Source of the DNA: Proteus vulgaris
Lineage (GTDB): Bacteria; Pseudomonadota; Gammaproteobacteria; Enterobacterales; Enterobacteriaceae
Reading direction: 5' to 3'
Assembly (NCBI RefSeq): GCF_023100685.1
Contig: NZ_CP090064.1
Location: 3,348,001-3,412,000, forward strand
DNA: 64,000 bases
Shown: positions 20,939 through 26,649 of the stretch, piece after piece
Numbering within the stretch: position 1 is the stretch's first letter
How the letters are laid out: every line of letters begins with the position of its first letter
Program-made: the position numbers and the translations under genes
Notes under the pieces: generated by a model
What the model was told of the DNA's origin: nothing
Databases searched by the model: none
What the model saw: only the letters and a program-made list of their open reading frames with translations

Positions 20939-21429
20939 TGATGATTGAATGGATTAGTGCTCACCCCGCACTTTTCTGGCTTTGTCTTGGTGGCTTGCTG
21001 TTAATTGCAGAAATGCTTGGAACAGCAGGATACCTTTTATGGTCAGGAATGGCAGCACTGTGCGTTTCTTTACTCGCATGGATGCTACCTATTAACTGGC
21101 CTACTCAAGGTGTGTTATTTGCGATATTAACAGTTATTAGTGCTGTTCTTTGGCACCTTTGGCTTAAACGCAGAAAACAATCAAAAGAAGCTGAGAACTT
21201 AAATCAGAAAAGTCATCAACTGATTGGTGTTCACGCTGTTCTGTCATCAGATACAGAAAATGGGTTTAGCCGCATAAAACTAGCCGATGGTAGTTGGCGT
21301 GTTTACTCAGACACGCCATTACAAGCGGGTGATAAAGTCGAAGTCATTGCTATTGATGGCATTACTTTACACGTTATTCCACTTAAACCGACTGCTTCTG
21401 ATGGTGGCAACACCCTGACAAATGATTGA
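20938..21429 (+). CDS. ybbJ: NfeD-like membrane protein YbbJ
   Basis: A 163-residue partner of QmcA with two or three N-terminal helices ([18 protein letters not shown] and following) and a C-terminal OB-fold containing [12 protein letters not shown] and [18 protein letters not shown]. NfeD proteins cap or support SPFH assemblies. An ATG three bases later is also possible. Its last 47 bases overlap the convergent cueR gene, an unusually deep 3' overlap. Confidence 0.92.
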
Positions 21430-21796
21430 TAATGGGGCAATCAGCACCATCATCGCCAGGACATTCACTGGCTAACAAGAGAAGACGTTGACGAATTGCA
21501 TTAAGTTCGTTAATAGTCTTCTCAATTTCAGCCACCTTTTTTAACGTCGCTTCTTTCACATCAGCGCTATGTCGTGATGGATTTCTTAATAGCATTAACA
21601 ATGCACGACACTCTTCTAGGTTAAAACCAACCTCTCTAGCTTGTCGCAATAATGTTAACTCTTCAATATGTTGTGCCTGATAATAACGATAGCCGTTTTC
21701 ACCTCTTCCTGGGGGTGTAATCAAGTCTTTTTCTTCATAAAACCGAATGGCTTTAGCTGTTAATCCTGTTTTGTTTGCGATTTCACTAATATTCAA
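21383..21796 (-). CDS. cueR: Copper-responsive MerR-family activator CueR
   Basis: CueR senses Cu(I) and activates copA by twisting an over-long promoter spacer. The 137 residues have the MerR helix-turn-helix ([20 protein letters not shown]), a dimerisation helix, and the metal loop [12 protein letters not shown] with two Cys eight residues apart. It ends CCHHQ, as in CueR proteins. It is divergent from copA and its target operator lies at 21806-21836. Convergent overlap with ybbJ is 47 bases. Confidence 0.96.
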
Positions 21797-21805
21797 AATT
21801 CCCCC

Positions 21806-21836
21806 TTGACCTTCCCCTTGCGGAAAGGTTTAGCCT
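21806..21836 (+). promoter_or_regulatory. copA promoter and CueR operator
   Basis: TTGACC (21806-21811) and TAGCCT (21831-21836) are 19 bases apart. Within the spacer the dyad ACCTTCC...GGAAAGGT is the CueR box, almost identical to the E. coli copA promoter as I remember it. The long spacer is what MerR-type activators correct on metal binding. Confidence 0.93.
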
Positions 21837-21930
21837 TTATCTCTGATAAGAAAAAACCTTTAAAGAAAGCAAGTTACCGGATATTGCGCAATAATAGAGG
21901 TAACGCTTTTTATTTCGGAGATAAACTAAC

Positions 21931-24873
21931 ATGGCAAAAACTACGCTACTCGCATTACAAGGACTTTCATGCTCCCACTGTGTTAACAGTGTAAAAAAAG
22001 CACTTGATGCTCGCAATGATATAGAACAGTCAAATGTGACTATTCAATACGCTAAAATTGACAGTGATGCAACTGCTGAAAGTTTAATCAAAACGATTGA
22101 AGACGCGGGTTATGAAGCTAAAATTGCAACTCAGCCTGATGTAAAATTAAGCCTAAGTGGCCTTAACTGCATGAAGTGTGTAGGTAAAACCGAAAAAGCA
22201 TTATTAGCCGTTGAAGGTGTGGCTGCGGTTAATGTGACAAAGGAGTCTGCTGAAGTTTTTGGCGATGCTACTGCAGATACCTTAATTGCAGCAATTACGG
22301 CTGAAGGTTTTCAAGCCAGTTTAGCCCCCACAGATAACACAATTTATTTAACCCTTTCAGGCTTAAATTGTGGCCATTGTGTCGGCTCAGTCAAAAAAGC
22401 ACTTGAAGCGACAACAGGCGTTGATAGTGCTGAAGTTGAATTAACTCATGCAAAAGTAATCGGATCTGCTACCACAGAGACATTAATAACAGCTATTAAA
22501 GATGCTGGTTTTGAAGCACAACTAGCAGGTACTGATTTCCCAAAAACTGAGCCGCTGACGCAAATGCATGAACAACTGGAAGCATCGTCAGCGGCTGTTT
22601 GTGACATTCCAGTTGAAAATGCAGACATTGAAAATAGCTCAGAAATAGACATTGATGATGACAGCAGTGTTCAGCTTTTAATTGATGGCATGACCTGTGC
22701 AAGTTGCGTAAACAAGGTTCACAAAGCATTACAATCCGTTGATGGCGTTGAGAATGTACGTGTAAACCTTGCTGAACGTAGCGCATTAGTGACAGGTGAA
22801 ATTGATCATGATGCACTAGTGACTGCCATTGAAAAAGCAGGTTATGGCGCTGAAATTATTCAAGATGATGTAAAACGTAGAGAGCGCCAGCAAGAAGTCG
22901 CTGTTGCTAATATGAAGCGTTTTCGCTGGCAAGCTGCATTGGCCTTAGTTGTTGGTATCCCTGTCATGATTTGGGGAATGATTGGCGACAATATGATGTT
23001 AACCGAAGCTAACCACAGTATTTGGTTAGGTATTGGTATTGCAACATTGTTTGTTATGGTTATTGCTGGTGGTCATTTCTATCGTAGTGCATGGCAAAGT
23101 TTAAAAAACCGCAGTGCGACAATGGATACCCTCGTTGCGTTAGGAACAGGAACAGCATGGCTCTATTCCATTACCGTGAATTTATGGCCAGAAGTGTTCC
23201 CTGCTCAAGCTCGACATCTCTATTATGAAGCCAGTGCGATGATTATTGGTTTAATCAATCTAGGTCATATGCTTGAGCAAAGAGCGCGTCAGCGTTCATC
23301 TAAAGCACTAGAGCGCCTATTAGATTTAACGCCACCTACAGCAAGGGTCATCACTGAAAACGGTGAAGTTGAAATGCCATTAGCTGATGTTAAACAAGGA
23401 ATGACATTACGTTTAGCAACAGGTGATAAAGTACCGGTTGATGGTGAAATTATTCAAGGTGAAGTGTGGATGGATGAAGCCATGTTGACTGGTGAACCCA
23501 TCCCACAGCAAAAAACAGTGGGCGATACTATTCATGCCGGAACCACAGTTCAAGATGGTTCAGTTTTATTTAAAGCGGCGGCTGTGGGAAGCAAAACAAC
23601 ACTGGCACGTATCATTAAATTAGTTCGCCAAGCACAAAGTAGTAAACCTGAAATTGGTCAGCTAGCGGATAAAATTTCAAGTGTTTTTGTGCCTATTGTT
23701 GTCATTATTGCCTTAATTGCAGGTGCTATTTGGTATTTCTTTGGCCCTTCGCCACAAATTACCTATGCACTCGTAATTATCACAACGGTTCTTATCATCG
23801 CTTGCCCTTGTGCCTTAGGCTTAGCGACACCAATGTCCATTATTTCAGGTGTAGGCCGTGCGGCTGAATATGGTGTGTTAGTCCGTGATGCGGATGCGCT
23901 ACAACAAGCCAGTAAGCTAGATACTTTAGTCTTTGATAAAACAGGAACATTGACAGAAGGTATGCCTCAAGTCACTGAAATTCATACTTTCAATCAAGTA
24001 GATGAAATTCAAGCACTTGCATTGGCAGCATCACTGGAAAATGGCTCTAATCATCCATTGGCTAAGGCAATTTTAACACGCGCTGAAGGCATTGATTTAC
24101 CCGAAGTAAATAAGTTTCGTACATTAGCAGGTATGGGATTAAGTGGTGAAATTAAGGGTAAAATAGTGCTTTTAGGTAACCCCAAATTGATGGTTGACTC
24201 TGGTGTTGATATTAGTGAAGTTAATTCGCTAATTGACTCTCAGGCAGCCAAAGGGGTTACTCCGGTTTTATTAGCACAAGACGGCAAAATTGCGGCACTA
24301 CTTTCTATTCGCGATCCTCTTAGAGAAGATACTGTAAGTGCGTTACAACGTTTACATAATCAAGGTTATCGACTCGTGATGTTAACGGGAGATAACCCAA
24401 TTACAGCGAATGCAATTGCAAAAGAAGCAGGCATTGATCAGGTTATTGCGGGTGTGATGCCAGAAGGTAAAGCACAAGCTATTACTGAGCTTCAAGCTGA
24501 AGGACGTCGTGTTGCAATGATCGGAGATGGTATTAACGATGCCCCTGCATTAGCCAAAGCTGATGTCGGTATTGCAATGGGGGGTGGTAGTGATATCGCT
24601 ATTGAAACAGCCGCTATCACGTTAATGCGTCATAGTTTGCATGGTGTTGCTGATGCCGTTGAGATCTCAAAGGGTACGCTACGTAATATGAAGCAGAATT
24701 TATTCGGTGCCTTTATCTATAACAGCTTAGGTATTCCTATCGCAGCCGGTATTTTATACCCATTTACAGGCACGTTATTAAACCCTGTTGTTGCTGGTGC
24801 AGCAATGGCATTGTCTTCAATCACTGTAGTAAGTAACGCAAACCGTCTATTGCGTTTTAAACCCAAACAATAA
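21931..24873 (+). CDS. copA: Cu(I)-exporting P1B-type ATPase CopA with four metal-binding domains
   Basis: CopA pumps Cu(I) from cytosol to periplasm. At 980 residues it is longer than E. coli CopA (834) because there are four N-terminal HMA domains, with CxxC at 14/17, 80/83, 147/150 and 256/259. An acidic linker (about 206-248) separates the third from the fourth. The pump has TGEP, CPC in IIACPCALG, the phosphorylated Asp in DKTGT, SNHPLA and [11 protein letters not shown]. Codons 204-205 form a slippery heptamer with a downstream pseudoknot (see 22539-22615), so a 206-residue three-domain protein is probably made too. Confidence 0.96.
22539..22615 (+). promoter_or_regulatory. Programmed -1 frameshift signal inside copA
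   Basis: In the copA frame the heptamer C CCA AAA (22539-22545) allows both tRNAs to slip back one base; the -1 frame then reads AAC and TGA (22548-22550). Four bases after the heptamer an 11-bp perfect stem pairs 22550-22560 with 22586-22596. Its loop (22573-22581) pairs perfectly for 9 bp with 22607-22615, giving an H-type pseudoknot. E. coli copA is known to use CCCAAAG plus a structure in the same way to make CopA(Z). Slippage would release domains 1-3 as a 206-residue protein. Confidence 0.88.
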
Positions 24874-25242: not shown

Positions 25243-26649
25243 ATGAATTTAAATAAGACTATTATTATAATCTTACCTTTAATTTATTCATCTCATGTAT
25301 TTTCAGATGAAACATATTATATAACACCAGATAAAACTCCATTTATCGCTATTGAACCAGATACGATAATCACATCCCCCTCATCTTTTGATCAAAAAAT
25401 AAGTAACCATTATGTTAAGTTAGAAAAAAATAAAATATCATTAACTGATGAGATAATAGAAAAGCTCAACAAACACATTGGGAATATAAAAACAACATTC
25501 GGAGAAAGTATTACAAAAGAAAATATTAAAATAAAAAATAGTTTAATTATTTCACCGAAAGATATAGAGATAAGATCAAAAATTGCTTCTTTTTTTTATA
25601 ATAAAATAAAAGATAATCTACTAGAATCAAACGATGCCCCACATATTTCATTTAATAAAAAAGCCGTTCTTCACTTTCTAGCCGAACATACAAATGATGA
25701 TATACAGATTGCACAAACGACATTACCTAACCTCACCATTAAACAATATGATGATATTGTTCATGGAGAAAATAACAATGAAATAAACCAAGGAGATTTA
25801 TTTTCAATTGAAAATGAATTCAATAAAAAGATCATTACGTTAATCAAAAAGAACAATATTGAACTGAGTAAGTTTGATAATCAAATTAAGCTTAATAAAA
25901 TGATGAGCAAAGTTAATCAATCTGGTCACGCAATGAATTTAGAAAGAATATTAGCAAATGAAGACAATTTTGGTGCTAATAAAAAAGACATTGATACCAA
26001 TAAAAAAGACATTGATACCAATAAAAAAGGCATTGATGCCAATAAAAAAGATATTGATAACAATAAAGAAAGTATTGATGCCAATAAAAAAGACATTGAT
26101 ACCAATAAAAAAGGCATTGATGCCAATAAAAAAGATATTGATAACAATAAAAAAGGCATTGATGCCAATAAAAAAGATATTGATACCAATAGAATAGGCA
26201 TTGATACCAATAGAAAAGATATTGATATAAATAAAGAAGACATAGATAATATTAAAGATAACTATATCGATAATCTAAATATTAATGGAAACAATATTTC
26301 ATTAAAAAACCATTTTGCTACTCTTTATATGGAACAATCAATCTCAAGAAGCGAAGTTAAAACGCTAAAAAATGATTTTGAACATTTTAAATCTGATACT
26401 CAAAATCGCTTTTATAAAGTTGAAAAACGCGCCAACCAAGGTATTGCTTCTGTGGCAGCAATGAGTAATTTACCTTTTACCGATTCTGCTACATTTAGTA
26501 CCGCTATCGGCATAGGTAATTATCGTAATGCCACTGCTCTTGCTTGGGGTATGCAATATCGTATTAATGAAAATATTAAAATAAGAGCCTCTACTGCATG
26601 GAATGAATCAAGCTGGGTCTCTGCTGGCGGTGTTGGGGTAAGCTGGTAA
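25243..26649 (+). CDS. Trimeric autotransporter adhesin (YadA-like)
   Basis: A 468-residue outer-membrane adhesin. It has a signal peptide (KTIIIILPLIYSSHVFS), a head/stalk of unrecognised sequence to about residue 245, and thirteen heptads of the NKKDIDT type (246-336). A coiled-coil neck (FEHFKSDTQNRFYKVEKRANQGIASVAAM) leads to a YadA anchor ending in GVGVSW with terminal Trp. In the heptads Ile is at a and Asn at d, the N@d register known to bind anions in these stalks. P. mirabilis has several such adhesins (AipA, TaaP); I cannot say whether this is one of them. The gene sits between chiX and ybaP and is more AT-rich than its neighbours. Confidence 0.9.
   Translation: MNLNKTIIIILPLIYSSHVFSDETYYITPDKTPFIAIEPDTIITSPSSFDQKISNHYVKLEKNKISLTDEIIEKLNKHIGNIKTTFGESITKENIKIKNSLIISPKDIEIRSKIASFFYNKIKDNLLESNDAPHISFNKKAVLHFLAEHTNDDIQIAQTTLPNLTIKQYDDIVHGENNNEINQGDLFSIENEFNKKIITLIKKNNIELSKFDNQIKLNKMMSKVNQSGHAMNLERILANEDNFGANKKDIDTNKKDIDTNKKGIDANKKDIDNNKESIDANKKDIDTNKKGIDANKKDIDNNKKGIDANKKDIDTNRIGIDTNRKDIDINKEDIDNIKDNYIDNLNINGNNISLKNHFATLYMEQSISRSEVKTLKNDFEHFKSDTQNRFYKVEKRANQGIASVAAMSNLPFTDSATFSTAIGIGNYRNATALAWGMQYRINENIKIRASTAWNESSWVSAGGVGVSW
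25978..26250 (+). repeat. Tandem 21-bp repeats encoding stalk heptads
   Basis: Thirteen consecutive 21-base units encode NKKDIDT, NKKGIDA, NKKDIDN and variants. Several units are near-identical at DNA level, and a higher-order pair (KGIDA then KDIDN or KDIDT) recurs. Units stay in frame, so slippage or recombination would change stalk length without breaking the gene. Confidence 0.92.

Follow-up and report, generated by a model that had tools for sequence, protein, structure and literature searches.

A putative -1 frameshift element in Proteus vulgaris copA and its place between released and retained HMA domains among relatives

The copA gene of Proteus vulgaris (21931..24873, plus strand, in the 64,000-nucleotide stretch of DNA analysed here, called the window) codes for a copper-exporting P-type ATPase of 980 amino acids with four HMA domains, and the question it raises is whether its mRNA also yields a shorter, copper-binding protein and, if so, how many of these domains such a protein would carry. 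The gene scores 1694.8 bits against the NF007952 CopA equivalog model (cut-off 1316), and its closest named relative is copA of Proteus vulgaris PR00166, with 97% amino-acid identity. It is divergent from cueR (21383..21796, minus strand), coding for the Cu(I)-responsive regulator, which scores 179.1 bits against TIGR02044 CueR (cut-off 147.4) and 217.2 bits against NF007590, under the 244 of that model. The HMA domains, located with an HMA profile on the plus strand, are domain 1 with the motif GLSCSHC (21952..22116), domain 2 with GLNCMKC (22147..22311), domain 3 with GLNCGHC (22351..22515), and domain 4 with GMTCASC (22678..22845). The match to the E. coli-length CopA model begins at residue 136, at domain 3.

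Between domains 3 and 4 lies a slippery heptamer, C CCA AAA (22539..22545), in register with CCA as codon 204, so that three HMA domains, all with an intact CxxC, are 5' of it and one, on the pump side, is 3' of it. Reading in the -1 frame past the heptamer gives one codon (AAC) and then TGA (22548..22550), which ends a 206-residue product with the C-terminus FPKN. Four nucleotides past the heptamer begins stem 1 (S1) of 11 bp, with its 5' arm at 22550..22560 and its 3' arm at 22586..22596, and the S1 loop contains the 5' arm (22573..22581) of stem 2 (S2) of 9 bp, whose 3' arm lies at 22607..22615. Both stems, supported by pairing and covariation, are on the plus strand, have no mismatches and together form an H-type pseudoknot. 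The heptamer, stop, stem and loop pairing described in the first-pass annotation are therefore all present where it had placed them, and its count of three HMA domains (206 residues) on the released side holds as a sequence fact.

Frameshifting in E. coli copA is established (PMC9548414, PMC5009743, PMC7558416, PMC6747150); of the four papers describing it, one reports a contribution of the nascent chain (PMC7558416) and another disputes the frameshift claim made for human ATP7B (PMC9548414). A selection of slippery motifs for E. coli includes both C_CC.A_AA.A and C_CC.A_AA.G, the latter giving 54% with the IS3 pseudoknot (PMC4066793). The E. coli K-12 copA, placed in the same alignment as the window gene, is annotated with a short soluble carrier, CopA(Z). 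The two genes share the heptamer class, the -1 stop one codon on, the core stems, and the location of the signal just before the last HMA domain. They differ in that Proteus would release three HMA domains (206 aa) and E. coli one (70 aa), in the last base of the heptamer, A in Proteus and G in E. coli, and in the greater length of stem 1 in Proteus.

The heptamer by itself is not rare, and the main proof of the element is comparative. Among 4000 random synonymous recodings (same residues, local codon usage), the heptamer appeared in 344 (8.6%) and the heptamer with the stop in 97, while none matched or exceeded the actual sequence in stem score or in pseudoknot score, both by a simple purpose-made measure. 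CCCAAA[AG] occurs 15 times on the two strands of the window, with a comparable structure at one of the 15, the copA site. Taken alone, the nested fold stands out only to a moderate degree (z -2.07; among 200 dinucleotide shuffles, 8 do as well or better), as computed by a program unable to represent a pseudoknot.

For the comparison, 238 genomes of the family had a CopA match at 1e-280, and copA was taken from 103 of them, spread over genera. The first-pass annotation had named synonymous drift destroying the signal in close relatives as evidence that would count against it; the opposite was found. Synonymous change, measured as the fraction of differing codons among same-residue codon pairs in stretches of 26 codons, is 0.318 over the whole gene in 17 distinct Proteus copA genes and falls to 0.027 in the lowest stretches, which overlap the element; for the stretch that opens with CCA the value is 0.054 (rank 6 of 956). 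The corresponding gene-wide and lowest values are 0.484 and 0.168 in the Providencia group (n=10), 0.449 and 0.076 in the Yersinia group (n=12), and 0.547 and 0.271 in the named genes including E. coli (n=81). The lowest stretches overlap the element in every set, and those that open precisely with CCA hold ranks 5 to 10.

Covariation, proposed earlier as a check on both stems, is present in both. The alignment comprised 117 distinct segments of 84 nt that differ from one another at more than 4 positions, drawn from 168 distinct ones after removal of a false positive (L114), and it includes E. coli copA (L117), to whose pseudoknot that of the window gene is homologous. In this alignment 81.0% of the cells of the pseudoknot are paired, as compared with 74.3% in column shuffles and 18-48% when the structure is slid by 1-3 columns. 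Both-side changes occur in 17 of the 22 pairs, and the covariation score is 0.200 versus 0.110 in shuffles (reached in 0 of 500) and at most 0.076 when slid; the column shuffles take no account of relatedness. The core of S1 (6 pairs) is intact in all 117 segments; outer pairs are frequently broken, e.g., 20-74 in 77 of the 117. Stems rebuilt with other bases occur in L214 and L217 (CCACTG/CAGTGG) and in L215 (CCGTTG/CAACGG). Conservation at the protein level, of a PK-x-E-P-L linker with the RNA pairing as a by-product, would account for PK and PL being conserved there, but synonymous sites in this place are the most conserved of the gene, the stems covary, and the third base of the codon preceding CCA is C in 115 of the 117 segments although the residue changes; this explanation is hardly credible. 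The RNA element is evidently under selection.

A second explanation places the action of the stem in transcription, where it would serve as a terminator or attenuator and the short product would come from a short mRNA. The stem is strong, and the title of Drees 2017 pairs differential transcript formation with frameshifting. Nevertheless, no terminator-like site was found on the plus strand at 21700-22900, in a scan covering loops of 3-8 nt (the S1 loop has 25 nt), no T run follows the stem, and the heptamer together with the -1 stop would be left unexplained, which makes a transcriptional role very unlikely. Transcriptional slippage on the A run was considered as well and rejected: runs of 3-5 A should be too short for it, and there are 5 A in the window gene and 3 A in the CCCAAAG genes.

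The number of HMA domains was counted in 179 of 181 distinct CopA-like genes, with L265, of another family, and the paralogue L281 set aside. CCCAAA[AG] is found in register in 172 of them, as CCCAAAA in 109, the window gene's version, and as CCCAAAG in 63, and in every one of the 172 it lies between the penultimate and the last HMA domain, so that a single HMA domain is left on its 3' side. One codon separates the heptamer from the -1 stop in 171 of these genes; in L181 the distance is 18 codons. The distance from the heptamer to CCGCTG is 6 nt in 162 of the 168 segments and 5 nt in three frame-swapped ones, discussed below; the remaining three are one decayed, one A-run and one false site. 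By a profile built from these same genes, released and retained domains number 1+1 in 81 genes, 2+1 in 64 and 3+1 in 27, the 81 including L037 of Morganella, placed there owing to an indel that interrupts its first domain. Released domains are of the GL/DL-x-CxxC type and the retained one of the G-M-[TS]-CASC type; L037 shows RLNCMKC. Among named records, release of three domains is predicted for Proteus, part of Providencia, Leminorella, Pragia and Enterobacillus, and of two domains for Yersinia, Serratia, Hafnia, Photorhabdus, Morganella, part of Providencia and most Xenorhabdus.

On a rough FastTree of 88 ATPase cores, in which 27 of the 85 inner branches are drawn open, at least 12 changes of domain number are needed, a figure that includes the outside rows L260 and L265 and in which gain and loss are indistinguishable. 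The element thus stays at the border of released and retained domains while their number varies, as the first-pass annotation had proposed. Its contrast of three released domains with one needs an amendment: the three-domain product stands, but release of two domains is common too, and one and three are therefore the ends of a series. The RNA element is apparently a fixed boundary, with one HMA domain staying with the pump and those upstream of it releasable.

Taking the element as functional is based on the heptamer, the stop, the stems, the low synonymous change, the covariation and the unvarying position in all 172 genes with the heptamer. With a probability that we put at about 0.88, the element in the window copA is a -1 programmed ribosomal frameshift signal like that of E. 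coli copA, which would release a carrier with three HMA domains. The pseudoknot would hold up ribosomes that have finished HMA domains 1-3, at a point where CCA occupies the P site and AAA the A site; the two tRNAs would re-pair with CCC and AAA, AAC would be read, and TGA would terminate the chain, while ribosomes that do not slip would go on to make the four-HMA pump. The 206-residue protein may then serve as a soluble Cu(I) carrier translated from the same mRNA as the pump, and HMA domains would be gained or lost on the released side of the element. Slippage in Proteus, its frequency and the function as a carrier are all inferred from sequence.

Signals of this class are known in bacteria from dnaX, and to our knowledge only a small number of bacterial genes outside mobile elements have a conserved frameshift. 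The copA element resembles the -1 signals of dnaX and of insertion sequences in having a slippery heptamer and a downstream structure, but it belongs to another gene and product, and it marks a boundary between protein domains. An upstream Shine-Dalgarno-like stimulator is part of some bacterial -1 signals (PMC4066793). In the window gene there is a tentative, weak candidate, AGGT (22527..22530, plus strand), 12 nt before the heptamer, and anti-SD pairing is weak (-4.6 vs -4.0 kcal/mol in shuffles). Among 112 sequences, the pairing at -16 to -4 has a mean of -4.56 vs -3.03 kcal/mol in synonymous shuffles, beats the shuffle mean in 74% and reaches p < 0.1 in 23, in statistics that ignore relatedness among the sequences. 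E. coli K-12 copA is without anti-SD pairing upstream of its heptamer.

The seven genes without CCCAAA[AG] in register are L020 of Moellerella, L161, L214, and the four frame-swapped genes. In Moellerella wisconsensis the gene L020 codes for four HMA domains but lacks the heptamer, and L118 (G146) is alike. L161 has TCA AAA in place of CCA AAA, with the stems retained, and L214 an A AAA AAA heptamer with a stop one codon on. The signal is thus dispensable, since Moellerella (L020, and also L118) does without it and L161 has lost CCC. It is worth mentioning that HMA domains 2 and 3 of L020 and L118 are nearly identical, indicating a recent duplication.

Altered elements and broken genes were also observed in Morganella and Proteus. 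In Morganella L029, L035 and L036 the second stem is seemingly lost and a long hairpin replaces the pseudoknot (in L036 as judged by the aligned sequence alone); the hairpin has about -30 kcal/mol in L035 and L029, and a UUCG loop in L035. In L036, L037 and L120 of this genus an indel breaks the first HMA domain. One Proteus copA (L106 in G011, about 1501-2124) is cut after HMA domain 3, leaving a three-HMA frame; the ATPase is gone, an adhesin-like frame lies next to it, and no CopA match at 1e-220 was found in the G011 genome. In two other Proteus genomes (G015 and G017; L104, L105, L107, L108) copA is split, through either error or decay, in two frames within the ATPase part, the three-HMA part being open.

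The frame-swapped genes are L170 (G133) and L227 (G407), of one genus, L219 (G023, Sodalis praecaptivus), and L218 (G125, a genome related to the latter). They have 5 nt, not 6, between the heptamer and CCGCTG, with the heptamer and stems retained. The frame of HMA1 continues past CCA AAA as far as a TGA within S1, preceded by PKLSR, PKLRR or PKPRR. The other HMA domain and the ATPase occupy the -1 frame, reachable by slippage at the same heptamer. A search of 392 genomes for the pattern with 4-5 nt spacing matched 12 (a reversed-pattern control gave 6 hits), of which four carry the copA element (G133, G125, G023 and G122) and the others are unlike it by eye.

A missing base of this kind might be a sequencing error or a sign of recent gene decay. 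Two observations agree with this: the copA of G122, which contains the swapped element, is broken in many places, and L170 and L227 are close relatives sharing an identical 100-nt segment. Against it, four otherwise open cases from three genera keep the heptamer and stems, and the ATPase frame is open for ~780 codons, with dN/dS of 0.072 for L170-L227 and 0.148 for L218-L219 versus 0.076 and 0.098 for two classic pairs. The HMA1 values are 0.231 for L218-L219 and 0.64 for L170-L227, the latter from just 3 differences. Moreover, the swapped genes are on two separate branches of the ATPase tree, with local support of 100. Error or decay is accordingly an unlikely origin, and the pump frame of the swapped genes is by all indications under purifying selection. 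Since four of the six genomes of G133's genus have the classic arrangement and the branches are separate, the tree implies that the swap arose at least twice.

It may also be that the pump of the swapped genes is translated from a separate start in its own frame. The search for starts covered the pump frame downstream of the heptamer, and it gave an ATG immediately ahead of the final HMA domain in L170, a GTG in the linker of L219 and a TTG in the linker of L218. No good Shine-Dalgarno sequence was seen by eye before these starts, however, the first pump-frame ATG past the heptamer in L218 and L219 codes for the M of GMSCASC itself, and the heptamer and stems would have no need to persist, so a separate start is rather doubtful. 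The swapped genes are on balance better read as slippage at the retained heptamer, and it is fairly probable that the element is a boundary marker of flippable polarity: the pump would be the default product in most Enterobacterales copA examined, while swapped lineages, of at least two independent origins, would make the carrier by default and the pump by slippage.

Beyond the family, a covariance model built for the element was run against 394 genomes of the order, with stricter filters and 11 candidates scored per genome. It found 32 genomes at E <= 0.01, 29 in the family of the window (E <= 4.5e-9) and 3 outside it (0.003-0.008), in which no CopA was found at 1e-150. Among 42 genomes of other families of the order, 20 had a match, giving 24 P-type ATPase loci, and a slippery heptamer with a near -1 stop between the penultimate and last HMA domains is absent from these loci except L260. 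This gene (G418) is a four-HMA copA with A AAA AAG after HMA domain 3 and a -1 TGA one codon on; its stem differs from that of the copA element.

CopZ copper chaperones resemble the predicted carrier in their HMA domains with CxxC, and the CopZ-family model NF047957 matches CopA HMA domains above its cut-off, but CopZ is encoded by a separate single-domain gene. HMA matches in the source genome are confined to copA, a ZntA-like frame of 821 aa, and a 21-residue piece in a 47-aa frame, and no full-length separate single-HMA gene was found in this search. A separate carrier gene compensating for a lost signal was rejected on a PF00403 scan of 17 genomes, in which the matches in frames below 600 aa were only the swapped HMA1 frames, 77-103 aa long, and the copA genes of G011, G015 and G017, which are cut or broken. 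A protein search with the released part gave 7 matches, none annotated as a three-HMA carrier; two have names, one being a 'copper exporting ATPase' of 349 aa and the other a partial protein of 357 aa. CopA copies occur on plasmid records too.

The frameshift in E. coli copA is already known (Meydan 2017, Drees 2017), and Meydan 2017 is said to describe similar elements in copA of other bacteria; the newest point here is the putative swapped polarity. Neither multi-domain release nor swapped frames in copA was found among the titles and abstracts searched, and Meydan 2017 and Drees 2017 may mention them. copA would be a natural series in which one fixed RNA element releases a protein of one to three copper-binding domains, with the default product seemingly swapped in some lineages. 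It makes testable what use a multi-domain soluble copper carrier has and what ratio of carrier to pump is needed; in the swapped genes the pump should depend on slippage, so the efficiency of the latter could be judged by the amount of pump. Annotation may wrongly record such genes as broken or as a pair of genes.

Two further features of the window deserve mention. An A7 heptamer lies in register at codon 22 of copA, within HMA domain 1, and the -1 frame reaches a stop 2 to 6 codons later; this heptamer is common to the listed Proteus copA and absent from the listed named loci outside Proteus. Downstream of copA, 25243-26649 codes for a trimeric-autotransporter-like protein with weak model scores below the cut-off and with repeats of the DIDTNKK type.
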